This document shows positions 9,340 through 60,354 of a stretch of DNA of 64,000 nt, piece by piece. The notes beneath the pieces are model-generated. The model saw nothing but the letters and a program-made list of their open reading frames with translations. It did not search any database and was not told the DNA's origin. The stretch's first letter is position 1. Each line of letters begins with the position of its first letter. The stretch is from Mesorhizobium sp. SARCC-RB16n (GTDB lineage Bacteria; Pseudomonadota; Alphaproteobacteria; Rhizobiales; Rhizobiaceae). Made by a program: the position numbers and the translations under genes. The stretch spans positions 30,129 to 94,128 of the forward strand of contig NZ_ML703297.1 of NCBI RefSeq assembly GCF_008520305.1, in the 5' to 3' direction.

Positions 9340-9795
9340 TTACACTAGCACCCGTGGCTCAAACTTTACCCGGTCCAACGCAATCATGCTCTTGAATTTG
9401 CGGACATTGGGATTTGTATAGAGCTTGGTTTTCACAAAAACGTCAAAGTCCTCGACGTCTTCCACTCCTACAATAAGAACGAAGTCAGCATCACCTGTCA
9501 CCATATAGCATTGAGTAACTTCTTTCGCCGCCCTCATCGCTCGCTTGAAGTCGTCGACAAGATCCAGACGCTCACGATCGAGCTCCACCGTTACGACCAC
9601 CGTCAGAGACTTCCCGAGCGCTTTGGGGTCCACCAGGGAGATATCAGCGGTGATAACACCGTCGGCCCGTAACTTATTCACGCGGCGCATGCATGAGGCA
9701 GCTGAGGATCCCACCAGGTCAGCTAACTCGGCGAACGACAACCGGTTGTTCTTTTGCAGGGCTCCAAGTATGCGCCGGTCAAGGTCATCCATCAT
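9340..9795 (-). CDS. Lrp/AsnC family transcriptional regulator
   Basis: A 151-residue regulator with an N-terminal winged helix (DLDRRILGALQKNNRLSFAE, then SSAASCMRRVNKLRADGVI) and a C-terminal RAM ligand-binding domain (QCYMVTGDADFVLIVGVEDV). The family senses amino acids. It is divergent from the M20 amidohydrolase across a 247-base intergenic region, so it probably controls that gene and perhaps the amino-acid genes on either side. The M-M start offers ATG 9795 or 9792. Confidence 0.9.
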   Translation of the reverse strand: MMDDLDRRILGALQKNNRLSFAELADLVGSSAASCMRRVNKLRADGVITADISLVDPKALGKSLTVVVTVELDRERLDLVDDFKRAMRAAKEVTQCYMVTGDADFVLIVGVEDVEDFDVFVKTKLYTNPNVRKFKSMIALDRVKFEPRVLV

Positions 9796-34001: not shown

Positions 34002-34484
34002 CTAAAGCGGGATCGGATCCGCGGACTTAACCTCTTCCATCATGACGCGAGTTCGGAAGCTCTTCACGTTTCCTTCCTGGAAAAATAATTGGCGTGTGAG
34101 AGACGTATACTCGTCCATCCCCCAGGTATAAATTATGAGGATGAAGTCTGCCTCTCCGGTAACGTGGTAGCATTGCCGCACCTGGGGGCAGTTCAGGAAC
34201 CGTCTTTTCATCCCGTCGAGCAAATCCGGTTTTCCGTTCTTAGCCGTCACCTCGACGATGACCGTCTGAGGACGGCCAACCGCTCTCTCGTTTGAGATGG
34301 ACATGTCCTTTCTGATTATCCCGGTGGACCGAAGCCGTTTTAGGCGTCTCGCTACCGCCGGTGCCGAGAGGCCAACGCGGTCCGAAATTTCGCGCTGCGG
34401 CATGAGGTTGTCGAACTGCACCAATTGAAGGATTTTTATGTCGAAATCGTCGAACCGCGTTTTGCCAGCCTGCATCTGCATCAC
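34002..34484 (-). CDS. Lrp/AsnC family transcriptional regulator
   Basis: A 160-residue regulator with an N-terminal winged helix (FDDFDIKILQLVQFDNLM, then LSAPAVARRLKRLRSTGIIR) and a RAM domain (QCYHVTGEADFILIIYTWGM). It lies between the GNAT gene and the ATP-grasp/lyase operon, so it is the nearest candidate controller for either. It is convergent with GNAT and in the same direction as the biosynthetic operon that ends 440 bases upstream of it. Confidence 0.9.
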   Translation of the reverse strand: MMQMQAGKTRFDDFDIKILQLVQFDNLMPQREISDRVGLSAPAVARRLKRLRSTGIIRKDMSISNERAVGRPQTVIVEVTAKNGKPDLLDGMKRRFLNCPQVRQCYHVTGEADFILIIYTWGMDEYTSLTRQLFFQEGNVKSFRTRVMMEEVKSADPIPL

Positions 34485-34923: not shown

Positions 34924-37623
34924 TCAAGTGGATCGGTGTTTATCGATGAGTTCTTTCACCCTCCATTTGCAGTGCGCCTCGGCGTGCGCCCAGCGTTCCG
35001 ATATCTCGGCGCATTTCAGCTCCATGTCTCGAAAAAGCGTTTTTGCTTTGGAAAGCTGGTCATCGGTTGATCGTTTTCCGGGTCCTCCTCCGAACTGCAG
35101 GGCATCTCTGCACTCTTCGAGACTCGCCGGGAACACGCCAGCGAGTTGGCTGGCAAGCTCGCTTCGGCGCTGGGTGGCGCAGCTATCCTGAGACAGGCGC
35201 TGGGCGATCTCGCCAATTTGTGTGTGGGCCTCCCTGAAAGGGATGCCTCGCGAGGCCATCCGTTCGGCGGCGATGGCCGTCATTGACAACCCGTCTTCCA
35301 GATGGTCACGCATCGACCTGACGTTGAACGACATGTACTTCACGATAAGCGATGTGAGGATGATGGCCCTCTGCAGGGACTCTTCTGAAAGCCTGAGAGG
35401 AGAGCAGCCGTAGTTGCTTGCTTCAATCGAGTTGCTAAAAGGCGCTTTGCAGGTAGCCGTTGCCGCAGAAACGTATGCGCCGATTACAGTGCTTGCCGAC
35501 CCCTTGATGTGTTCAAGCAGGAACGGGTTCTTCTTTTGCGGGAGCATGGAAGAGCCGCCGGCAAGATTTCGAGGAACATCGATCAGAGCGAACTCGCGTG
35601 TTGTCCAGACTTGCAGATCCTGGGCCACACGACTGAGCAAGGTCGAGATGCTAGCAAAGACAGAAAGCCCGTGCAGGTGATGGTCGCGGCTCGCGACCGC
35701 ATCAAGAGAGTTGAACGACGGCTCTTCAAATCCTAAAAGACTTGCGGTTTTCAAAGGATCAATCGGCATACTGGTGCCTCCACCGGCACCAGCTCCCATA
35801 GGGCAGTTCCTGATGTCTTCCAGCAGGCTATGGAGGCGCTGGCGCTCGCGCCCCAGAGCGAAGAAAACGCCAAGCAGATAGTGCCCTGGCGATCCGGGGA
35901 GTGCGATCTGGTACTGGCTGTACAGCGGGGCCACAAGGCTTGACGCTTCCTCCACTCGCTGAAGTAGGGCACCTTGTGCAATTCCTATCTGTTGTGAAAT
36001 GGAACATGCAGCCTCCCGAAGAACCAGGAGAGAAATGGTCGCGTTCAAATCGTTACGGGACCTCGCAAGGTGCAGCCAGCCGGCCTTTTCCGGGCCAGCT
36101 CTGGCAGCAAGTTCGGCCTCATAGGCAAGGTAGAGGCCACGAGGGGCATCGCGGCCCTCCAAGGACTGAAAGCCCTCGTCCTGCAGATCCACGATGTGCT
36201 TGAGGAGATCGGCTGCGGCCGCCTGGCTGACCAAGCCCTGGTCCGCAAGCATCACCAGATGTGCTTCATCTATGGCCGCTTGGTGCTGCAAAAGGCGGCC
36301 ATCCCGCGAGATTTCTATAGGCGGGGCGAGCAACTTCATCGCTTCAAGATGCAGGGTCCACATGCCCTCGCTCGACCCAGGGTTTGGCTTGTCCGATTCG
36401 CCAGCAGCCGTCTCGATATCGATCTCAATGGAATCGATCATCCGATCAGCCGCCGCGGCGGCGGCATCGAGTTCATCAGCGACGCCTACGGCGTAGGCTA
36501 CTCTGTCCCTGAAGTCGCCCTTTATTTGAACTTCGCCTCCCTCAGATTTCAGTAGCCCCGCCTCGGGCACGGTCGGGTCTGGATTTCGAGAAAAGCTCAG
36601 GCGTTTGAGTTTACCGGACGTGGGAGCAAGTCGGAAACGGACGGCTCCCGCCCTTGCACTTGCGTGTGGGGGCGTGAACCCTTCTCCCGCGTAAAGTTTG
36701 ATCACCATGGCAAGGATTGACGTTCCCAGGGCGTGGGAGAGCATGACTGGAATCATCCCTCCAGCCAGCCTGGGGTTAACCTCGATGATGACGGGGCCCG
36801 ACTCCGCTATCACGAATTCCACATGAGCCGGCCCGAAATTCAGGCCCAGAGCCGACACCGCGCCCGCGGCAAAAGAGGCCAATTCCCGCTGAGATGGCTC
36901 CGTTAGCGGGGCCGGGAAGTCGTGCCCTACCTCGACGAAGCAGGGAGGCGGCCCCTTGTGCTTGGCAAGAATTCCAAGGCAATGCAGCGTCCCATCGCAC
37001 GCAATTATCTCTGCAGAATATTCCTTACCCTCGACATATTGCTGGATGAGGATGTCGGGACTGGGCAGATCCACTTGATCGAGCAGTGCGCCCCTTGCGC
37101 TCTCAAACGCCTTGATGGCGGCTATGGAACTATCGCACAACCTCACGCCGCTACTGCCGCTTCCGGACACCGGCTTGACGACCACCGGTAGAGTGGCTTG
37201 GGCAAGAATATTCTCGACGTCTCTGACGGAAGTGGCCAATCGTGTTTCAGGGATCGCGATTGATTGCCGCTGCAACTCGGCCGCTTGCTTCCATTTGTTG
37301 CGGCATGTGGCTATAGCCTGCGGATTCGCTGCTGGTAGCCCCATCGCCATCGCCGCACTAGACGCTGCTTCCACAAAATAATCCGAGGACGAGTATATTC
37401 CTGCCAGGCCGCTTAATTTGGCAGCGACCCCGACGAGTTCGTCCGGACTGCGCGTTTCAGCTTCAATCACCTGGGCGACCGCGTCCTTAAGAAACGGATA
37501 GCGCGCAGGATTGCGGGTAACGAGGTAGGTTTCAAAGCCTAGGAGTCGGGCGCGTTTCATCAACAGTTCGCCGGTGCCGGTCGTGTTGCTTTCCACGAAA
37601 AGGAAGCTACCTCGGTTCATCAT
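34924..37623 (-). CDS. ATP-grasp ligase fused to an argininosuccinate-lyase-like domain
   Basis: A protein of about 899 residues with two enzymes in one chain. Residues 1-410 are an ATP-grasp ligase: [40 protein letters not shown] and [18 protein letters not shown]. From about 430 on the fold is that of the fumarase/argininosuccinate lyase family: [34 protein letters not shown] with [13 protein letters not shown], and the signature [12 protein letters not shown] near residue 690. The conserved THLQ catalytic box is changed to SQYQ. The ligase probably joins an amino acid to an amine or acid, and the lyase may release fumarate; both substrates are unknown. ATG 37623 overlaps the stop of the PLP enzyme gene. 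Confidence 0.88.
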
Positions 37624-38678
37624 GATGCGTCCTCCAGAACGTTTAGGACAGCTTCCCGGCTTTTCCGCTTCCAAAGATATCGGTTCCATGGCGGGAGAGC
37701 GGACGAGGGATGCTCTTCGCTAGAGGGAGTGTCCGGAAGAGCACCCTCGTGTAGGCATCCGTTCTGCCTGAGCCACTCGTGGTCGTAAGCAGTTTCTGCG
37801 TAGCGGTGCCCTTCGTCGGGACATATGACGACCACGGATTCTCTCGGACACTGCCGAGCGCGCCAACGCCCCACGATATAGCTCGCTCCGGAGGTCGGTC
37901 CGGCGAAAATAGCGTGCCGCTCGTGGAGGGTTCGCGTTGCAGCAAATGCGAGCGGAGCCGAGATGAGATGCACCTCGTCATAGAGTTCATGCTTCACGTT
38001 CTTGGGGACAAGACTGTTCCCCAGCCCCCGCAGTTTCCGTTCGCCATCCCGTTGGCCAAAAATGACGCTGTTAAAGGTGTCCACGCCAATCAGGCGGGCG
38101 CCAGGGGCCTTTTGCCGGAGGCGCTCTATCGTTCCGCAAGTGGAGCCGCCTGACCCCACAGAACCGACCACAGTTACGTCGGGGCCCAACATCCCCGATA
38201 TTTGATCGGCAAAGAGCTTATAGGCAGCGGGGTTGTCCGGTGTTTCGTATTGCCGGGGCCAGAAACAGGAGTGGCCCAACTGTCTCATCCTAGCCTGCAA
38301 TGCATCGAGGCGGCTTCTTTGATAACCCCCCTCCCTCGCCTTTTCAGTTATGATGCAGACGTCGGCTCCCAAGGAGGTCAACCTGTTTTCCAGACCTTTG
38401 TCCATCACTGGGTCTGTGAAGATTTCGAGCTGGAATCGACGTTCCCGGCAAACGACGGCCAAACCCAGCGCGAAGGTTCCGCTTGAGGTCTCGAGAACTT
38501 TCATGCCGTGCGTCAAAGTCCCTTGAGCCAGCGCTTGCTCAATGATGTACTTCGCTGGGAGAAGCTTCATGAACGCAAACTGCGCGAGATAAAGATTTGT
38601 CTCACACTTAATAATGCAGGGGAGGGCATAGGCTTCGGAATATCCGGCGAATGGCAGGCGTTTGCGAACAGCGTCCAT
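37620..38678 (-). CDS. Cysteine-synthase-like PLP enzyme (fold type II)
   Basis: A 352-residue PLP enzyme of the cysteine synthase / TrpB-beta superfamily. [15 protein letters not shown] carries the probable PLP lysine, [13 protein letters not shown] replaces the usual TSGNTGxxLA substrate loop, and [17 protein letters not shown] binds the phosphate. The C-terminus [12 protein letters not shown] is also family-typical. Such enzymes exchange a beta- or gamma-leaving group of an activated amino acid. With a GHMP kinase encoded 22 bases upstream, a phosphorylated hydroxy-amino acid is the likely substrate (inference). GAGG precedes the ATG. Confidence 0.87.
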
Positions 38679-38700
38679 TGCTTACCTCACCTGCAGCCGG

Positions 38701-39744
38701 TCACATGGTCAGATAGATTTTTGGCGAGTTGTAGAACGGCGCTACACGGGCGAGCACGGACCGAAGCTTCCGTGGAAAGTCAGCCGCCATTCGATCAAGC
38801 AGGATTCCGATCATTGTGCCGCTATGCGCGACGATAACCCCGAGAGCGCTGGTGGCCTCGGATGCTTTCAGCATCGAGTTCAGATGCTTCTTTGGAGTTC
38901 GCTCCTGATGCAAAAGAGCGCTGGATGTGGCTATTTTGCCTATCGTCGCCGCATCACCCTTTGGAATTGCTATCCGGGCGCGGTTCAGGAGTTCTTGATA
39001 TTCGGCTCTTTGATTGGTGGAGATCTCACCTCGCCGTTGATCATAGTCGACGGTTTCGACCGTCCCTCCTTCATCGATACCAACGATTGCTAGCCGAGGC
39101 ATTTGGCCTAGGAAGGAGAGAAGACTACATTCTCGCTGTTGGTACGCAACCACACCCGGGTACATCACCCCGTCGGATGGCTCGATCTCCGCCATTAGCT
39201 TTTCGATGAATGATGTCCGGACTCTACACTTGAAGCAGCCGGCGATAGACCGAGCGGCCGCAACAAGATCTGCAGACGAACTCGCCAGCCCTTTGCCTTC
39301 GGCGAGCTCAGATTGCAAAAGGAGGATTCCTCCTGAGGCGCCGAGCGCAATCACGAGATTCTCAGCCAGTCGCTTTGCCTTCACTTTGTGTGACGGATAA
39401 ACGGTTACGGAACGGGTGCCTGCAATCGGCATGAAGTGAGCTCGCGCAAAAAGCGCGATGGGCATCGTGACCAAGAAGTGAGGGTCCCGGGCAATGGAGC
39501 CGACCGGCAACTGACCTTGCAGCAACTCGCCGAATGTTCCGCAACAAAGAGCGTCGCGAGAATGAACCCTTGGCTGCAGCCCGTCCTTAGCGATGATCTG
39601 GGTCGCATCCGGGCCATCGAACGTCTGGTGAGACATGTATGGCCTCCAAATTTCATCGGCGGCCGCTTCGAGAAGTTCGCTAGACGACATGCCCGCCCCG
39701 TCTCTTGGAGGGTCGATAGGATGCCTGGAATTCTGAATCGCCAT
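38701..39744 (-). CDS. GHMP-family small-molecule kinase (PduX-like)
   Basis: A 347-residue kinase of the GHMP superfamily. LCCGTFGELLQGQLPVGS resembles the GELxQG start of PduX L-threonine kinase, the ATP-binding motif is LAEGKGLASSSADLVAAARS, and the third motif is in GVIVAHSGTMIGILLD. The first 50 residues before this domain look unusual. It probably phosphorylates the hydroxyl of an amino acid such as threonine, serine or homoserine, giving a leaving group for the next enzyme. GGGGGAAG precedes the ATG. It is the first gene of the three-gene operon. Confidence 0.85.
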   Translation of the reverse strand: MAIQNSRHPIDPPRDGAGMSSSELLEAAADEIWRPYMSHQTFDGPDATQIIAKDGLQPRVHSRDALCCGTFGELLQGQLPVGSIARDPHFLVTMPIALFARAHFMPIAGTRSVTVYPSHKVKAKRLAENLVIALGASGGILLLQSELAEGKGLASSSADLVAAARSIAGCFKCRVRTSFIEKLMAEIEPSDGVMYPGVVAYQQRECSLLSFLGQMPRLAIVGIDEGGTVETVDYDQRRGEISTNQRAEYQELLNRARIAIPKGDAATIGKIATSSALLHQERTPKKHLNSMLKASEATSALGVIVAHSGTMIGILLDRMAADFPRKLRSVLARVAPFYNSPKIYLTM

Positions 39745-44885: not shown

Positions 44886-45635
44886 TCATTTTGATCCTGC
44901 GATTGCTTTGAAAACATGTCGCTTGGCAGCCCGCACGCTTTCTTCCAGCGACGCCCCGAGCGCAAGAGAGGCGGCAATGGCGCTGGAGAGCATGCAGCCC
45001 GTCCCGCGCATCTCGCCCGACAGCCGCGGCGCCATGAATCGAAGCGGAGTTCGGTTCGGCTGCACCAAGAGGTCGACTGCATCCCTTCCGGGCGCATGAC
45101 CGCCCTTGACGAGGACGGCGGTCGAGACGGATCTCGACAATTCCTCGCCCTGGCGGCAAGCGGATGCCTCGTCGACTGCGATCGCCGATGCGGTCAACAC
45201 GGCCAATTCGGGCAGGTTCGGCGTAACAATCCGGCAAAGCGGCATGAGATGATCACGCAGCGCGACGACAGCGTCTTCCATGATTAGCGCCCCACCGGAC
45301 GAGGAGGCGAGGACCGGGTCCAGCACCACCGGAATGTCGGGATGATCCTGTATAACCGCAACGGCTTTCGTGATCGCGCTGTGGGTGCCAAGCATTCCGA
45401 TCTTGATGGCCTTCACACTGTTGGCGGCGAGGGCGGCCCGCATCTGGGCCACGACAAGATCCGGCGGCATATGCTCGATCCAGTTGACCGACTGATGCGT
45501 CTGGACGGTCACCGCCGTCACCGCGACGCAAGAGCTGAGACCGAGCGCCGCGATCGTTTCGACGTCGCGCGTCACTCCGGCTCCGCCGCTTGAATCGCTT
45601 CCTGCGACGACCAGCACGTGAGGCCGCGGGTTCAT
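44886..45635 (-). CDS. thiD: Hydroxymethylpyrimidine / phosphomethylpyrimidine kinase
   Basis: A 249-residue ribokinase-fold enzyme that phosphorylates HMP and HMP-P for thiamine synthesis. Motifs are VLVVAGSDSSGGAGVTRDVE, LDPVLASSSGGALI, TPNLPELAVL and ALVKGGHAPG-type VLVKGGHAPGRDAVD, with the catalytic anion hole GTGCMLSSAIAASLA. ATG 45635 overlaps the thiE stop (ATGA). It is the last gene of the thi operon. Confidence 0.93.
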   Translation of the reverse strand: MNPRPHVLVVAGSDSSGGAGVTRDVETIAALGLSSCVAVTAVTVQTHQSVNWIEHMPPDLVVAQMRAALAANSVKAIKIGMLGTHSAITKAVAVIQDHPDIPVVLDPVLASSSGGALIMEDAVVALRDHLMPLCRIVTPNLPELAVLTASAIAVDEASACRQGEELSRSVSTAVLVKGGHAPGRDAVDLLVQPNRTPLRFMAPRLSGEMRGTGCMLSSAIAASLALGASLEESVRAAKRHVFKAIAGSK

Positions 45636-46237
45636 CGCCAAGGCGCCGTTGCCTCGAGCCATTCACGCGTGCGCGTCTCGGGATCGGCAGCGCGGATAAT
45701 GTCGGTAACCACCGCTGCACTTTGGGCGCCATGTCCGAATACACCGGGAAGCCGCTCCAGGTTCAGTCCGCCAATGGCGACGAGCGGCACGGGCGCGACA
45801 CGTCTCCTCCATTCGGCGATGCGTTCAAGGCCCTGAGGCGCCCATTTCATCGCCTTGAGGATGGTGGGGTAAATCGGCCCGAGCGCGATGTAGTCCGGCT
45901 GCGTGAAGAGCGCCGTTTCCAACTCGATGCAATCATGCGTGCTCAGTCCAAGTTTAAGGCCGGCGCGCCGGATCGCTCCGATGTCGGCGCTCTCCAGATC
46001 CTCCTGGCCGAGATGGACAAAGTCGCATTCCTCTTCGATAGCGATGCGCCAGTAATCGTTGACGACGAGCTGGCAGCTGTGTCGCGCACATACCGCCTTC
46101 GAAGCACGAATTTCTCGGCGCAGCGAAGCGTCGTCCTGGTCCTTGATGCGCAGTTGCACCAGCTTGACACCAAGCGGCACCAGACGTTCGATCCATGCAG
46201 CGGAATCGACGATCAGGTAGAACGGATCGAGCTTCAT
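45632..46237 (-). CDS. thiE: Thiamine-phosphate synthase
   Basis: A 201-residue TIM-barrel protein that joins HMP-PP and thiazole phosphate. [15 protein letters not shown]-like [48 protein letters not shown] with [15 protein letters not shown] and [14 protein letters not shown] are all typical. The ATG at 46237 overlaps the thiG stop. It is slightly short for the family but complete. Confidence 0.92.
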
Positions 46238-47007
46238 GAAAATGCCGCCATGCCGATAACAGGAGTGGAGGGAACGGCCATGTCGCGCGGTTCGAGCAGG
46301 CCGGCGCAATAGGCCTCGCGGCCGGCCTCGACCGCTTTGCCGAAGGCCGCGGCCATGGCGACAGGATCGCCTGCCTTGGCTATCGCCGTGTTGAGCAGCA
46401 CCGCGTCGTAGCCGAGTTCCATCACGGCTGCGGCATGCGACGGGCGGCCGATGCCGGCATCGACAATCAGAGGAATATCGGGGAAATGACCGCGCAGGCT
46501 GCGCAGCGCGTCGAGGTTCTGCGGCCCGCGGGCCGAGCCGATCGGCGCGCACCAGGGCATCAACAGCTTGCAACCGGCGTCAAGCAGGCGCTCGGCAACG
46601 ACGAGATCGTCGGTCGTGTAGGGGAAAACCTCGAAGCCTTCCGAGGCAAGAATCCTTGCGGCTTCGACCAATCCGAAGACATCGGGCTGCAGCGTATCGT
46701 GATTGCCGATCACCTCGAGCTTGATCCAGTTCGTGCCGAACACCTCGCGCGCCATGCGCGCCGTCGTGACCGCCTCACTCACCGAATGGCAGCCGGCGGT
46801 GTTGGGCAGGACGCGAACGCCGAGCGATTGGACCAGAGACCAGAACTGACCGCCGGATTTGCCGCCGGAGGTTTCGCGGCGCAGCGACACGGTGACGATC
46901 TCCGTCCCGGACGCTTTCACCGCCTCGGCCATGACGGCAGGCGAGGGATAGAGCGCCGTGCCAAGCAGAAGGCGGGATGAGAGTTTCTGTCCGTAGAGGT
47001 CGAGCAT
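46234..47007 (-). CDS. thiG: Thiazole synthase
   Basis: A 257-residue thiazole synthase. FSSRLLLGT-like [27 protein letters not shown]-like [36 protein letters not shown] and [20 protein letters not shown] are the family boxes; the Schiff-base lysine is in IKLEVIG. It builds the thiazole ring from deoxyxylulose phosphate, ThiS-thiocarboxylate and dehydroglycine from ThiO. It lies four bases behind thiS. Confidence 0.94.
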
Positions 47008-47011
47008 CGGA

Positions 47012-47192
47012 TCAGCCCCCCTTCATCGGGGTGAGGATTTCGATGCGGTCGCCTTCAACAAGCCAGCATTGGTCGCGTTCCCTGGCCGCAACGACCTCGC
47101 CGTTCAGCGCGGTGGCGAGCCAGCCTCCCTGGAAGTCGAGTTCGGTCAGCAACGCGGCGAGCGTCTCGGCCGCGACCTCATGGCTTTGGCCG

Positions 47193-47209
<17 letters not shown>
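47012..47209 (-). CDS. thiS: Sulfur carrier protein ThiS
   Basis: A 65-residue ubiquitin-like protein ending in the required Gly-Gly (ILTPMKGG), which becomes a thiocarboxylate. [20 protein letters not shown] and [15 protein letters not shown] match the family. It overlaps the end of thiO by 17 bases and precedes thiG. Confidence 0.93.
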
Positions 47210-50236
<3,027 letters not shown>

Positions 50237-55104: not shown

Positions 55105-55431
55105 CTATTGATCGTTGCGCCTCAACCATTTGAACGGTACAAAACGATCTATAAAAGCAAGAAAAACTACCAATGCTCCACATATTATAGTTGACGTGTT
55201 AACTATCGAAATAATCTTTAACTGTTCAGATGTTATATAGACGACTATTCCCTTGACCAGATATGGCTCTATGAGGCCCCGGGCCAAATCTGGCGCTCTT
55301 GGATATTCAACATAAGTGCCGTCAAGAATAAAGCTTGCCGCCATACATGAAAGCCACAAGGCGAAAACTGCTATATTTAATATTCGGCTCAATCTAACAA
55401 TCATGCCCTTACCACTATTCGAATGGGTCAT
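55105..55431 (-). CDS. Small two-TM membrane protein, possible immunity protein of the RHS protein
   Basis: A 108-residue protein with two hydrophobic helices (LNIAVFALWLSCMAASFIL and ISIVNTSTIICGALVVFLAF) and a short periplasmic loop. It overlaps the 3' end of the giant RHS gene by 17 bases and is richer in A and T than anything around it. Small membrane proteins directly behind polymorphic toxins are often immunity proteins, so that is the working idea; the family itself is not recognised. ATG 55404 is an alternative start. Confidence 0.6.
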   Translation of the reverse strand: MTHSNSGKGMIVRLSRILNIAVFALWLSCMAASFILDGTYVEYPRAPDLARGLIEPYLVKGIVVYITSEQLKIISIVNTSTIICGALVVFLAFIDRFVPFKWLRRNDQ

Positions 55432-58400
55432 AGACGCTGGTATAAGTCATAGCGCCGGTGAAAGATGCTCCTGCTGCAGCCCCCACCGTTGCACCGCCGC
55501 CAGTCACCGGCCCATGAGGACTATCTCCAGTAAAGTAGTCCATGGAGCCGCCGAGCCCAACCCCACCATGACCAGCAATATTGCCGAACCATCCTCTTAA
55601 GTCACCAATCGTCTGTGCATTTGAGAATTGGATACTGAGGCCTCCTTCTACATTCGCACCGATTTGAACCCCACCGCCTCCATAGGTATAAAATCCAATA
55701 TGGCCTTGACTGTCTATTGCAACGCCGACACCGCTGGGGGATCCGGCAACAGTGGGGATCCAATTGCCGGCGATCCCGATCTGTAACGTGCAAAGACCTG
55801 TTGAATCAGTGCCATTTGGAGGACCATTGCCGGCATACACATAAAGGTTCGTCCCGATGCCGGTCTCGCGGAGAGGATCACGCGAAAGCCAGCGACCTAT
55901 AATTGGATTGTAGGCTCGAAACCAAGTGAGGTACAGTCCGCTCTCCACATTGTTAAATGTCCCGGCATAGCCAAAATCCGTAAGCGGTGCAGTGGCTTGG
56001 AGAGGAACGCCGTATGGGTCGTAGTTATACGCAGGTGCACTAACAGGGCTGGAAAACACCCTTCGGACCGAGCCTATTTGATCCGTCCCGTAATAGTAGG
56101 ATTGCCCTGGCGTCCCAGGAACAAACTCGCCCTCGGCAAAGTATTCACGCGCGGTCGAATTATCTCCGTTTTTTGCCTGACAGGGAAACGCACCGCACCA
56201 GATGTATGATGTTGCCACAGTAGCTCCGCCGCCCGTGGTGATTCTGGTGCGTCGGTTCAAACCGTCGTATGCGAATGCAGTGAAATTGTCAGGCCGACCC
56301 GGATAGCTGATTCCCACCAACCGGTTTTCGGCATCCCAACTGTAATTTCGTTGTCCATCCGACAGAAGATTGCCGTTGGCGTCGTAACTCAACGCTTGCC
56401 CGGACAAATTGGTCAACTGATTGAGATTGTTGTAGCTGGCCGTTTGCGTGCTGACGCTCGGATACACGGCCGAGCTGTCGCTGTTCTCAGCGATGGCTGT
56501 GATAAGGTTCTCAGGGGTGGTTATGTACTGATAGGTCGAAAATTGGCTTGCCGACAATCCGACGTTGTTGATTTGCGCAAGTCGGCGATCACCGGAATTC
56601 GGAAGATAGGTCCAGCTTGTCGACAATGTGGAACTGGCAAGCTGACGGCTCGTCACCTGCTCCGTTTCGCCGAGATAGCTCAGGGTGAACGAGCCGAGGT
56701 CGCTTGTATGAGCATTCATGCGGCCTACCGCATCGTAGCCGAAAGTTTCGGGGCCGGAGCCAGCAACGGTACGGGACGTTGGCCGCCCCGATTCATCATA
56801 GGAATAGACAATAGAACTGCTCGGCGTCGGACTGCCTTCCTGTTGCAGCTGAAGCGCGCCTTGGGAAAAGGGGGCGACATAGCTGTACTGGGTCGGCCCA
56901 TTGCCGTCGGTCATCGAAGCTATACGTGGGAAGAAGGTATCATACGTGAAGCTGACGTTGGGCGTTGGACGGATCGCGTTCAAATAGCTGATTGCTGTCG
57001 GCCTGTTGTCCTGGGCATAGCTGAACTGCTTGGTCTGTCCCAGAGCATCAAGCACCGACTTCAACCGGCTGGTCGTGTTCTCATAGGTATATGCGACGGT
57101 GCTCGAGTCGGCATACTGTTTCGATGCCAGGCGACCCCGCACATCATAGGCCCAGATCGTAACATTTGTCTTCGGGTCGGTCAGACTCGTCAGCTGGTCG
57201 CGTCCATCATAGCCAAACAGGGTTTGGTTCCCGAGCGGGTCGATCGTCTTGGTGCGCCGCCGGTTCGCATCATAGGTATAGCCCCAGACGCGGTTTTCAC
57301 GATCCTTGAACGAGGCGAGATCAAGCTTGTTATAGGTATAGAAATCGGCGGTGCCATCAGGATAGGTGATTTTCGTGACGCGATCGGCGGCGTCGTAGTC
57401 ATAGGTGACAGTCCAGCCCTCAGAATCAGTCAGAGTTCGGACCCGATCAAAGCTGTCATAGGTATAGGTGAGTGCGGTCGCGTTGTTGGCGTTGGTGACC
57501 GAGGTCAGATTGGCGAGCGAATCGTAGTGATAGCTGGTTTTTTCACCCTTCGGATCGGTGGACGATGTCAGCTGGCCCGCGCCATTGTAGGTAAAGCTCG
57601 TCGTTTCGCCGGCGGCATCGATGTAGAACAGTGGCCGGTGATGGCCGTTGTAGCCGTATTGAGCGATTGTGGTCTGGAAGCCGTTCTGTGTGGTCTGGCT
57701 GACTCCGGCAAGATCGATCTGGTTGGCATAAGTGTATGACGTTGTTCGGCCAGTCGGATCTACGGCCTGGGTAAGATTGAAAAAGCCGCTCGCGTCATAG
57801 GAAAATTTGGTGAGCTGCGTAGTGCCGTCGTCGAGCACCCGACCAACCGCGATTGGCTCGTCGTAAGTTCCGCCAAATATACTACTCGATTGGCCAGGGT
57901 ATTCGTACCACACTCGATTTTCGAGTGGGTATTTGACGCTTTCAATGGCCGTACCCTTGATATCCGAGTTCGGCATATGAACAAAATGCCGGATCCGGGC
58001 TTTGCTGTAGTCGCAGCCGCCGGTTGGTGTGCAGCCCGCCGCCACATAGGCGTCCTTATCCCAATGGAAGCTGTCGCGGTATTCCAGATAGAAGTTTGTC
58101 GGGTTCGTCGGCATGCCCTGCGGCACGGTCGCTCCAGGGTCGCTGGTAGGGACTGGGGCGGGCTCAAGCCATTCCTCGCGCTCATGATAGCCAAGCGGAT
58201 CGGTGACTTCGACGAAACGCGGCGGCGTAGTTGTGCCGGGAGCCGTGTAAGCGAATGACGTTGTTCCGTAGGGCGTCATCATCGAGTTGACGAGGGAATT
58301 GGCGTCATAGGTAAAGCTGGACGTCAGGCCGATAATGTCGGTGATCGAATTCAATCGGCCACTTCCATCATAGGTCAGCGTGGCGCTGCGACCGAAAGGG

Positions 58401-60235
58401 TCGGTAATTTTGGTAACAAGCAGGGGGGACCCCGACACGCCATACGTGAATGTGGTTGTGCGACCGGTCGCGTCAGTCAGGGACACAAGCCGCTGTTGGC
58501 TGTCGTAGTTCAGCGTAACTGCATTGCCCTGGGGATCGACCACCTGGCTCAGGAAAATCCTTCGCGGAAAGCTGACGGCGCCGTCGGCCTGCGCGTAAAT
58601 TTCGACGCTGCCGTCACGGAGCAAATGGCGATAGGCAATCGGCGAGCCGGAGGCACGCACCAGGATCGATCCGTCAGTATCCTCGGCGGCGAAGGTGCCA
58701 GTGCTGGCGTTGTAGTTAAGGTAGTAGAATGCGCCGCCGCCTGACATATATCGAGAGACGTTCGCGCCGGGATTGGTTGGATCATCCGTGACATAGCTCA
58801 GCCAGCTGATCGTCCATTTCGGACTGACGTTGAAGAAGCTGAAAACGGCGGGTTGGCTATCTTCTCGCTGATTGTAGCTGATCCCGACCTTCGCGGACGG
58901 CCCAATCGGGGGTGAATAGCCAACGGGGGTGTCTGACAGTGAGACGCTGACGCTCGATTCCTTAATGTTGTAGCTGCAAAGAGGGCACAACCATCTACTT
59001 ATCATTTTACTGATCGTTGGCGGCCCATCAGGACCGTCAGGCCCATTTGGCCCGTTGTGTCCGCCAGGCCCACCACGCGGCCCTCCGCCAGGCCCACCAC
59101 CCATCCCTCCGCCAAGCCCACCACCCATCCCACCGCCGGCCCCTCCGTCGCCAGGCCCCCCGCCGCCGCCATTGGCATTTTTATCCCCAGCATCGCCAGG
59201 CCGGCTATTGAACGTCTCGCCTTTTCCCCAAACGGTCGCCGCCTCGGCCATCTCGACCGCGCGCCATCTTTGATCGAGAGGAACATCGGACGGGACAAGG
59301 AAATAGCCACTGGCCTCGGCGTCGAGCGCGGCCTCGGTCACCCAGAGATCGGGGGTCGGGAAAACGGTGTCCTTGATGTGGAACCGTCCATTGGCTTCCC
59401 CAACGATCGCTGCGAAATGCCCAACCTTCCAGTGCACGACAGACGGCATCGGCACCGGCTGTCCCGGCTGCCGCATGACCAGTCGATAGGAGAGGCCAGC
59501 CTTTTCGGCGAGTTGGCCGACCTCGGCAAGGCTGGTGCCCTTGTCTCCAGCCTTGTACCACTGGAGAAAATCCACCTTCTCGAAACTGGCATTGCGGGCC
59601 AACATCAGCTGTTTCAGAGCCAAAGGCCCGCAAATGAACAGATGCCGCGTCGCCAGTTTCGCTGGCGCGATCTGCTCGCTGGCGGTCTGAATTGCCTCGG
59701 TGACGGAACCCGTTATTGGTCGTTTTCCGATGTCCTTGAGGAGTGCCGTGAGCTGTTCGGTGCGTCCGAGGTTAGCGTCAAGTTGCGCAAGTTCCCCCAC
59801 CGCTCGGTCAACCAGCGCTCTGGCCTGCGGGGCGGTAGCGTCCTTGCCGTCGACCCAGGCCTTTTGCCAGACGTCGATTGCCCGAGAGAAATAGCCATCA
59901 TGCAGGTAGGAAAGGCCGAGATTGGTATTGAGGGCCGGAGCCCAGCCGGAGTGCGGATATTCCTCCAGGAATTTGGTCAAACTGGTTACATCGCCGGGAA
60001 TGGGGCGCTGATTGTATATCGCCAACGCGTCCAGGAGAGCTTGGTCTTCTTCCGCGGACGTGGCAGCTGTCGGGATAAGTGGCTCGGCAAAATGCCCCGC
60101 ACGAATTGCACTGGCGATCGCCTCGGAATTGCTTCCGGCCGCCTGTACGCCTCCCGACGCACACACCAGCGATAGAGAAAGGATGGTGGACCTGATCGCC
60201 ACTCCTGCCAATGCCGACCACGTTGCTGCTTTCAT
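55415..60235 (-). CDS. Secreted RHS/YD-repeat protein with a C39-peptidase-like domain
   Basis: A protein of about 1606 residues. The start at 60235 gives a signal peptide (WSALAGVAIRSTILSLSLV, cut near VQAAG). A helical TPR-like part follows, then near residues 195-330 a C39-like cysteine-protease fold with Cys in LFICGPLALKQL, His in VHWKVGHFAAIVGE and Asp in FHIKDTVFPTPD. A glycine/proline-rich linker (residues about 345-400) leads to dozens of YD repeats and the RHS core WFRAYNPIIGRWLSRDPL with NLYVYAGNGPPNGTDSTGL. The last 125 residues are a glycine-rich, variable tip that may be a toxin. The longer frame from 60280 lacks a signal peptide. Confidence 0.9.
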   Translation of the reverse strand: MKAATWSALAGVAIRSTILSLSLVCASGGVQAAGSNSEAIASAIRAGHFAEPLIPTAATSAEEDQALLDALAIYNQRPIPGDVTSLTKFLEEYPHSGWAPALNTNLGLSYLHDGYFSRAIDVWQKAWVDGKDATAPQARALVDRAVGELAQLDANLGRTEQLTALLKDIGKRPITGSVTEAIQTASEQIAPAKLATRHLFICGPLALKQLMLARNASFEKVDFLQWYKAGDKGTSLAEVGQLAEKAGLSYRLVMRQPGQPVPMPSVVHWKVGHFAAIVGEANGRFHIKDTVFPTPDLWVTEAALDAEASGYFLVPSDVPLDQRWRAVEMAEAATVWGKGETFNSRPGDAGDKNANGGGGGPGDGGAGGGMGGGLGGGMGGGPGGGPRGGPGGHNGPNGPDGPDGPPTISKMISRWLCPLCSYNIKESSVSVSLSDTPVGYSPPIGPSAKVGISYNQREDSQPAVFSFFNVSPKWTISWLSYVTDDPTNPGANVSRYMSGGGAFYYLNYNASTGTFAAEDTDGSILVRASGSPIAYRHLLRDGSVEIYAQADGAVSFPRRIFLSQVVDPQGNAVTLNYDSQQRLVSLTDATGRTTTFTYGVSGSPLLVTKITDPFGRSATLTYDGSGRLNSITDIIGLTSSFTYDANSLVNSMMTPYGTTSFAYTAPGTTTPPRFVEVTDPLGYHEREEWLEPAPVPTSDPGATVPQGMPTNPTNFYLEYRDSFHWDKDAYVAAGCTPTGGCDYSKARIRHFVHMPNSDIKGTAIESVKYPLENRVWYEYPGQSSSIFGGTYDEPIAVGRVLDDGTTQLTKFSYDASGFFNLTQAVDPTGRTTSYTYANQIDLAGVSQTTQNGFQTTIAQYGYNGHHRPLFYIDAAGETTSFTYNGAGQLTSSTDPKGEKTSYHYDSLANLTSVTNANNATALTYTYDSFDRVRTLTDSEGWTVTYDYDAADRVTKITYPDGTADFYTYNKLDLASFKDRENRVWGYTYDANRRRTKTIDPLGNQTLFGYDGRDQLTSLTDPKTNVTIWAYDVRGRLASKQYADSSTVAYTYENTTSRLKSVLDALGQTKQFSYAQDNRPTAISYLNAIRPTPNVSFTYDTFFPRIASMTDGNGPTQYSYVAPFSQGALQLQQEGSPTPSSSIVYSYDESGRPTSRTVAGSGPETFGYDAVGRMNAHTSDLGSFTLSYLGETEQVTSRQLASSTLSTSWTYLPNSGDRRLAQINNVGLSASQFSTYQYITTPENLITAIAENSDSSAVYPSVSTQTASYNNLNQLTNLSGQALSYDANGNLLSDGQRNYSWDAENRLVGISYPGRPDNFTAFAYDGLNRRTRITTGGGATVATSYIWCGAFPCQAKNGDNSTAREYFAEGEFVPGTPGQSYYYGTDQIGSVRRVFSSPVSAPAYNYDPYGVPLQATAPLTDFGYAGTFNNVESGLYLTWFRAYNPIIGRWLSRDPLRETGIGTNLYVYAGNGPPNGTDSTGLCTLQIGIAGNWIPTVAGSPSGVGVAIDSQGHIGFYTYGGGGVQIGANVEGGLSIQFSNAQTIGDLRGWFGNIAGHGGVGLGGSMDYFTGDSPHGPVTGGGATVGAAAGASFTGAMTYTSVYDPFE

Positions 60236-60354
60236 ATCCCGTCTCCCGGAATTGCGGCCTTGGGCGGGTCGGCTCGGCACATTGGGTAGCTGCCGACGCG
60301 CTCGAATCTAGTACTGTGGCGCTTGCGTGCCCCACGACTGACGCCTCGGAATGG

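Follow-up and report, generated by a model that had tools for sequence, protein, structure and literature searches.

A GHMP kinase, PLP enzyme and ATP-grasp/lyase operon of nodulating rhizobia with a possible role in diamino acid synthesis

In a 64,000-nucleotide stretch of the genome of Mesorhizobium sp. SARCC-RB16n (contig NZ_ML703297.1, positions 30,129 to 94,128; hereafter, the window), three minus-strand open reading frames (ORFs) within positions 34924–39744 encode a GHMP-type kinase, an SbnA/cysteine-synthase-like enzyme dependent on pyridoxal phosphate (PLP), and a fusion of ATP-grasp and argininosuccinate-lyase-like domains. We directly observed this gene set, the retention of its catalytic motifs, its co-inheritance and its distribution. 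On these grounds, we see an even chance that the operon constitutes a self-contained route from a beta-hydroxy-alpha-amino acid to a 2,3-diamino acid, with one additional ATP-dependent step of amide formation.

Operon structure and active sites

The kinase gene (38701–39744, 347 aa) comes first and its stop codon is separated by 22 bases from the start of the PLP enzyme gene (37620–38678, 352 aa), the stop codon of which shares four bases (ATGA) with the likely ATG codon of the fusion at 37623. This arrangement, along with the assignment of the protein families, had been proposed in a preliminary description of the sequence and is borne out by the ORFs and by Pfam and NCBIfam comparisons. The ORF of the fusion is listed as extending up to 37689, but translation most likely starts at 37623, which corresponds to residue 23 of the ORF as listed and yields a protein of 899 aa (34924–37623), because three relatives from Sinorhizobium meliloti align with it from residue 23 onward only and four of the 22 copies of the fusion in the genus Mesorhizobium contain an in-frame stop ahead of that residue (stops in two further rows of the 22-copy listing represent the normal gene end and were not counted).

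The fusion scores far above the cut-off of NCBIfam NF002563 (1257.1 versus 625 bits) and is a full-length member of that family, whose name (PRK02186, 'argininosuccinate lyase') is silent on the ATP-grasp half and on the pathway and is probably misleading. Pfam domains ATP-grasp_3, ATP-grasp_4 and Lyase_1 are each recognized in the fusion above their cut-offs, and the profile envelopes place the ATP-grasp domain at 36391–37620 and the lyase domain at 34927–36363, both on the minus strand. The closest relative of the ATP-grasp domain with a solved structure is the L-amino acid ligase 3vot, and it has the E-x-N-P-R motif expected of such ligases; it is also related to DdaF and to the L-amino acid ligase domain LAL_C2, while scoring below both cut-offs (74 versus 840 bits and 23 versus 29.4, respectively). 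The PLP enzyme exceeds the Pfam PALP cut-off and has SbnA (TIGR03945) as its best NCBIfam match. The kinase, which we propose to act on a hydroxy-amino acid of the Thr/Ser type on the basis of Pfam and alignment motifs, barely exceeds the cut-off of GHMP_kinases_N (25.3 versus 22.3 bits); its weaker NCBIfam matches are limited to shikimate and mevalonate kinase models (E ~0.02), and homoserine kinase models are weakly matched by some of its relatives.

In the PLP enzyme, Lys38 (the predicted PLP lysine), Arg123 and Tyr144 are invariant among all 109 close relatives and all three align with residues of SbnA, its nearest relative of solved structure. Arg217 is found in 101 of these relatives, its place being taken by Pro in SbnA and by Ala in 25 other kinase-paired enzymes of intermediate score. 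An alignment of 36 kinases revealed invariant G72-E73, Q76-G77, S155, S156, D159, E188, D191 and H307-S308-G309, so that the GHMP motifs, including the serine loop and the HSG motif, are kept. E281-x-N283-P284-R285 is invariant in an alignment of 26 ATP-grasp domains (numbered from the 37623 start).

The alignment of 108 lyase domains, five ArgH-like controls among them, showed the SRN motif in every sequence and a recognizable serine loop (12 residues in the window protein) in every sequence, with Ala as the second serine in L009 and L188. The Thr-His pair of the lyases is retained in 86 sequences and replaced by Ser-Gln in all 19 rhizobial sequences and in two other loci (L053 and L056), and by Thr-Gln in L188. 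The chains 6rx8 and 6g3d, labelled argininosuccinate lyase in the database and taken by us to be ethylenediaminedisuccinate (EDDS) lyase, are members of this family, and in the alignment with 6rx8 this place is occupied by Thr-Gln. The rhizobial domain shares with EDDS and argininosuccinate lyases the fold family, the SRN motif and the serine loop, and with 6rx8/6g3d the Gln, but differs from them in being fused to an ATP-grasp domain and in forming a clade of its own. Its Ser-Gln resembles the Thr-Gln of EDDS lyase chains, Gln with a kept serine loop not being an established marker of activity. The expected conservation of catalytic residues therefore holds for the PLP enzyme, the kinase, the ATP-grasp domain and, in the lyase, for SRN and the serine loop, but not for Thr-His.

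Distribution and co-inheritance of the gene set

At the DNA level, the operon block is kept in 13 plasmid records, all of them from Mesorhizobium, Sinorhizobium or Rhizobium and 11 covering at least 80% of it, which argues that the operon is not a chance arrangement. In two S. meliloti plasmids the fusion is reduced to about a third, contained in two ORFs of the annotation, and a further copy is split into three pieces, which suggests that the operon can be lost.

Farther relatives came from a scan of genome contigs seeded with the PLP enzyme alignment alone, which yielded 238 relatives; the best 80 were retained, and kinase, ATP-grasp and lyase genes were called within 10 kb of the PLP gene by thresholds on purpose-built profiles. 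All three were found at 71 of these 80 loci, so that the families do occur together elsewhere, as the preliminary idea required. Among the other nine loci, six (L044, L048, L053, L056, L062 and L068) have ATP-grasp and lyase, L063 has only the lyase, L067 only the ATP-grasp, and L086 the ATP-grasp and the kinase; the lyase gene is cut by the contig end in L063 and L067, and L053 and L068 start near a contig end. A lyase is present at 78 of the 80 loci and is accompanied by an ATP-grasp at 77 of them, the only exception being L063, which leaves the contig inside the lyase gene. The gene set is seen in Actinomycetota, Alpha-, Beta- and Gammaproteobacteria, Blastocatellia/Pyrinomonadaceae, a cyanobacterium, Ktedonobacteraceae and one archaeal metagenome bin; a search of viral contigs with the kinase gave no match. 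Many actinobacterial loci are adjoined by ORFs of more than 900 aa, the size of non-ribosomal peptide synthetases (NRPSs), some of which are not real genes, and the annotated ones adjoin NRPS or adenylation-domain genes. Plasmid-borne relatives of the PLP enzyme, several with a GHMP kinase, were also noted in Paraburkholderia phymatum, Mesorhizobium, Bradyrhizobium japonicum and Bosea (L096–L099 and L015), the Bosea one being close to an acyl-homoserine-lactone synthase gene.

The converse search, seeded with the kinase, was examined in Streptomyces using 40 stretches of up to 20 kb (L154–L193) picked from score groups of 142 matches. A relative of the PLP enzyme lies within 1 kb of the kinase in 34 of these stretches and within 1.4 kb in 39. 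This pairing, which fits phosphate as the leaving group, is the firmest link of the pathway proposed below. In 24 of the 40 stretches, neither ATP-grasp nor lyase exceeded the thresholds, and the PLP relative was of intermediate score in 20 (a score group with the motif SGIYA) and distant in four; five others combine kinase, PLP enzyme and a distant ATP-grasp without a lyase.

All 19 rhizobial loci compared, the window included, have the ATP-grasp and lyase domains joined in one protein. The same fusion occurs in an uncultured proteobacterium (L053), a Pyrinomonadaceae bin (L034) and a putative Streptomyces ORF (L040), whereas the ATP-grasp is fused to the PLP enzyme in Kitasatospora, Streptomyces globosus, L184, L188 and L191 (the fragmented stretch L190 was left out of this count). 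Such lineage-specific fusions suggest that the PLP enzyme, the ATP-grasp and the lyase act in one pathway, and the joining of the ATP-grasp to either neighbour suggests that it belongs to the core of that pathway. The pairwise-distance matrices of the three proteins correlate at 0.93–0.97 across 101 loci, figures that include near-identical loci and still contain shared ancestry. In the midpoint-rooted tree, a long branch leads to a single clade (support 1.0) that unites the rhizobial loci, and L053 is the sister of this clade.

A second ATP-grasp gene (322–340 bits against the purpose-built ATP-grasp profile) was observed within 10 kb of the operon in eight of the 18 rhizobial loci other than the window (L002, L012, L018, L020, L023, L024, L025 and L028), and Sinorhizobium fredii NXT3 has a biotin-carboxylase-like gene of this kind ~7 kb from the operon. 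It may encode a further peptide ligase.

Proposed pathway and its alternatives

We infer every substrate, every reaction and the order of the steps from the gene set and the motifs, and to that extent the chemistry sketched in the preliminary description (kinase, PLP enzyme, lyase, ATP-grasp) still stands, except that ATP-grasp as the last step has become less well supported and is the least certain part. The kinase would phosphorylate the side-chain hydroxyl of a Thr/Ser-type amino acid, and the PLP enzyme would eliminate the phosphate and attach aspartate to the beta carbon through its amino group. The lyase domain would then release fumarate and leave the beta amine behind, yielding 2,3-diaminobutyrate (DABA) from threonine or 2,3-diaminopropionate from serine, and the ATP-grasp domain would couple either this product or its aspartyl precursor to a further amino acid or carboxylic acid. 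Aspartate as the nucleophile and the release of fumarate are suggested by their fit to the lyase domain. EDDS lyase acts on N-alkyl aspartates, and the similar Ser-Gln of the rhizobial domain points to a substrate of this type, as the aspartate adduct entering the third step would be. Near some relatives lie genes for GntG-type aldolases (two loci) and TauD-type oxygenases, which could supply beta-hydroxy amino acids. The starting amino acid is most likely L-threonine and possibly serine, threonine being preferred solely on the strength of the DABA precedent and of the GntG-type aldolase genes near two loci. The ATP-grasp may act either last or before the lyase, and its presence at 77 of the 78 lyase loci favours neither order strongly.

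A partial parallel is offered by the SbnA/SbnB route to 2,3-diaminopropionate, which likewise combines a phospho-amino acid with an amino acid donor (O-phosphoserine and glutamate being the substrates of SbnA) and whose PLP enzyme has the aligned Lys, Arg and Tyr; in contrast, the operon has a kinase of its own and a lyase in place of SbnB, no SbnB-type gene being annotated in the neighbourhoods read. The nearest described chemistry appears to be the synthesis of DABA for lipopeptide and uridyl peptide antibiotics such as friulimicin and pacidamycin. In friulimicin (dabABC), pacidamycin, napsamycin and mureidomycin, DABA is made from threonine with the help of cysteine-synthase-like and argininosuccinate-lyase-like genes, and the features that we associate with these cassettes (a PLP enzyme, an argininosuccinate-lyase-like protein and a kinase in one cluster) are all seen in the operon. 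The rhizobial set differs from the antibiotic cassettes in being fused, in its location on symbiosis islands or plasmids and in the lack of an NRPS gene in the six annotated rhizobial neighbourhoods, the plasmid gene tables of which are incomplete. A passage of one report places cysteine synthase and argininosuccinate/adenylosuccinate lyase genes in the cluster for a DABA-containing peptide (PMC12471526), and a passage of another states that mureidomycin products were lost upon inactivation of a homologue of npsG, a gene proposed for DABA formation (PMC4572928). The set had initially been regarded as lacking a described precedent. This view has become less well supported, since its unfused relatives adjoin actinobacterial NRPS genes and resemble the DABA genes; no description of the fused rhizobial operon was found in the open-licence literature searched for the gene set. 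In Amorphoplanes nipponensis, a methylaspartate mutase gene, which would connect the cassette to friulimicin, is located 2–9 kb from the genes for the kinase and the PLP enzyme; in Actinoplanes TFC3 the interval is ~20 kb, and none was found in Micromonospora L045; the Amorphoplanes and Actinoplanes clusters have few NRPS modules in the parts scanned and are not friulimicin clusters, so that this link is only suggestive. The TFC3 cluster (L203–L204) also encodes, besides the cassette and the mutase, an NRPS-sized ORF, an adenylation protein, a nitric oxide synthase oxygenase domain, a P450 and an ornithine-carbamoyltransferase-like protein.

Several observations weigh against the diamino acid route. 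The PLP enzyme misses the SbnA cut-off (204.5 versus 349.95 bits), the lyase domain misses that of ArgH (TIGR00838, 218.7 versus 279.5 bits), and NCBIfam models give no match to the kinase at 0.001. The asparagine of the SbnA PLP loop is replaced by Thr68 in 108 of the 109 relatives, and the change of His to Gln in the lyase could mean an altered reaction. The kinase is missing from seven of the 80 PLP-seeded loci that have a lyase or an ATP-grasp, with L044, L048 and L056 lacking it despite ~10 kb of sequence on either side, and L086 has the kinase, PLP enzyme and ATP-grasp with no lyase within 10 kb. In one Streptomyces stretch out of 40 (L190, with broken frames), 6.5 kb separate the PLP relative from the kinase, and in four the PLP relative is a distant one. 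Against the DABA parallel, published passages derive DABA from threonine and ammonia, which is not an aspartate route (PMC10714638), and describe both the cysteine synthase and the lyase genes as absent from the original gausemycin cluster (PMC12471526). Finally, the near-constant presence of the ATP-grasp is unexplained if the kinase, the PLP enzyme and the lyase suffice. A housekeeping ArgH role of the lyase domain was considered and rejected because of its score below the ArgH cut-off and because the five Mesorhizobium carriers checked (G001–G005) each have another ArgH-like gene, 31–32% identical.

A rather unlikely alternative in our judgement is an amidation of the PurC/PurB type, in which the PLP enzyme would add some other nucleophile, the ATP-grasp would link the amine of aspartate to a carboxylate and the lyase would free fumarate to leave a carboxamide, so that ATP-grasp and lyase form one nitrogen-transfer unit. 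In its favour, the two are joined in rhizobia and hardly ever occur separately (77 of 78 lyase loci), and amides are established leaving groups in the lyase superfamily, as in phosphoribosylaminoimidazole-succinocarboxamide (SAICAR). In addition, the ATP-grasp gene is flanked by those for the PLP enzyme and the lyase in Azospirillum, Sulfuriferula and two Streptomyces plasmids, and fusions of the ATP-grasp to either of these partners exist. However, other loci have a different gene order (PLP-lyase-ATP-grasp), and the closest ATP-grasp relatives of solved structure are amino-acid ligases; the adenylation domains of NRPSs encoded beside the cassette require a free carboxylate, and the five Streptomyces stretches with a distant ATP-grasp have no lyase. 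Compared with the diamino acid route, we also find quite improbable that the kinase and the PLP enzyme make a dehydro amino acid by phosphate elimination alone, with ATP-grasp and lyase serving another branch of the same metabolite: the 24 Streptomyces stretches that have only the kinase and the PLP enzyme would fit it, but their PLP enzymes belong to other subfamilies (most with SGIYA rather than SGTFA, and Ala in place of Arg217) and the distances of the PLP enzyme show a correlation of 0.97 with those of the lyase. Equally doubtful seems a product of the EDDS/aspergillomarasmine type, an aminopolycarboxylate that chelates metals, with the PLP enzyme making an aspartate adduct and the lyase adding or trimming. 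The EDDS-lyase-like Ser-Gln and the fact that SbnA, the nearest solved PLP relative, is a siderophore enzyme speak for it; against it are the Thr-His kept by most unfused lyase relatives and the six rhizobial neighbourhoods, whose incomplete gene tables list neither a regulator responding to metals nor a transporter for metallophores.

Nodulation, neighbourhood and significance

Carriers of the fusion and of nodA were counted in a family sample of 394 genomes around G002 and in a genus sample of 146 genomes centred on Mesorhizobium temperatum. In the former, three genomes have the fusion and 23 have a nodA match (two of them weak); all three carriers have nodA, for which the hypergeometric chance, with the centre genome left out, is 0.003. 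In the latter, the fusion is found in 21 genomes and nodA in 101, and every one of the 21 carriers has nodA (chance 0.0002, with genomes treated as unrelated). In eight of the 21 genus carriers, nodA and an operon copy share a contig, at distances of 40 kb (G514), 81–88 kb (G426, G427, G429, G473 and G476), 122 kb (G428) and 208 kb (G530, which has a second operon copy on another contig); the remaining 13 have them on different contigs and include G421 and G513, the hit coordinates of which coincide with those of M. japonicum pMLa and the 353.7-kb plasmid of strain 113-3-3. In G312 from the family sample, 26 kb separate the two, and the hit positions match those on plasmid pSfreNXT3b of S. fredii NXT3. 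On that plasmid, the operon is ~4 kb away from fdxB, the first nif-type gene, and on the nifX-to-nifH side. The operon is therefore an accessory gene set of nodulating strains, neither a universal symbiosis gene nor always located on the nod replicon.

The window from ~3.4 to 40 kb matches pMLa piecewise at 93–95%. This part encodes a D-amino acid dehydrogenase, a glycine C-acetyltransferase and an M20-type amidohydrolase (all above cut-offs), a transaminase, an Xaa-Pro dipeptidase-like protein and a peptide-type ATP-binding cassette transporter binding protein (below cut-offs), as well as a Rieske protein, two Amidohydro_2 proteins and a ferredoxin reductase. Few neighbours recur beyond pMLa and Mesorhizobium AR02 (the D-amino acid dehydrogenase in L002, a PRK07475-like protein in L206 and an Lrp gene in five loci), and the neighbouring amino-acid genes are not counted as parts of the operon. 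The Lrp/AsnC protein encoded downstream of the fusion on the same strand (34002–34484) is a possible regulator only: control by it as a general feature was rejected, as its close orthologues are found at this place in just pMLa and AR02 among the 19 rhizobial loci, the ~33% hits in four others representing a different Lrp gene. A second Lrp gene of the window (9340–9795) has orthologues of 71–96% identity no more than 10 kb from the operon in L016, L019, L022, L024 and L027.

A scan of 800 bases upstream of the kinase domain in the 19 rhizobial loci led us to reject NifA/RpoN control as a general feature, with ~0.17 RpoN sites of up to two mismatches expected by chance per locus from single-base shuffles. 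In M. carmichaelinearum (L023), the kinase domain is preceded at 573 bases by a perfect RpoN -24/-12 site, and a NifA-type site is located another 90 bases upstream; L024 has an RpoN site with one mismatch, the window (two sites), L013 and L019 have sites with two mismatches, and L019 and L022 have NifA-type sites without an RpoN site of one mismatch or fewer.

The window contains no NRPS-sized ORF apart from one of 1621 aa (55415–60280) that by eye resembles RHS/YD-repeat proteins, and AR02 has a type I polyketide synthase gene ~4 kb from the operon. The operon product could be used by enzymes encoded elsewhere in the genome. A further idea, which we consider improbable, is that this product is a nodule-specific dipeptide or amide of a diamino acid, made without an NRPS, encoded on symbiosis islands and symbiotic plasmids, and serving in the nodule as a signal, an antibiotic or a shared nutrient similar to rhizopines, the operon being an NRPS-free branch of the antibiotic-type cassette whose fusion channels aspartate-derived nitrogen. 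The window also includes a set of thiamine synthesis genes (44886–50113) similar to those on other Mesorhizobium plasmids.

These results raise the question of why an ATP-grasp enzyme is nearly always found beside the lyase, and outline a four-function cassette, spread across several phyla, for which the proposed chemistry is a swap of a beta-hydroxyl for an amine with aspartate as the nitrogen source. The rhizobial version is a fused, stand-alone variant whose relatives reside in antibiotic-type clusters of soil bacteria. It points to a natural-product-like pathway in nodulating rhizobia, one of which is the reference strain M. japonicum MAFF 303099; there, the kinase encoded on plasmid pMLa is annotated as a hypothetical protein.

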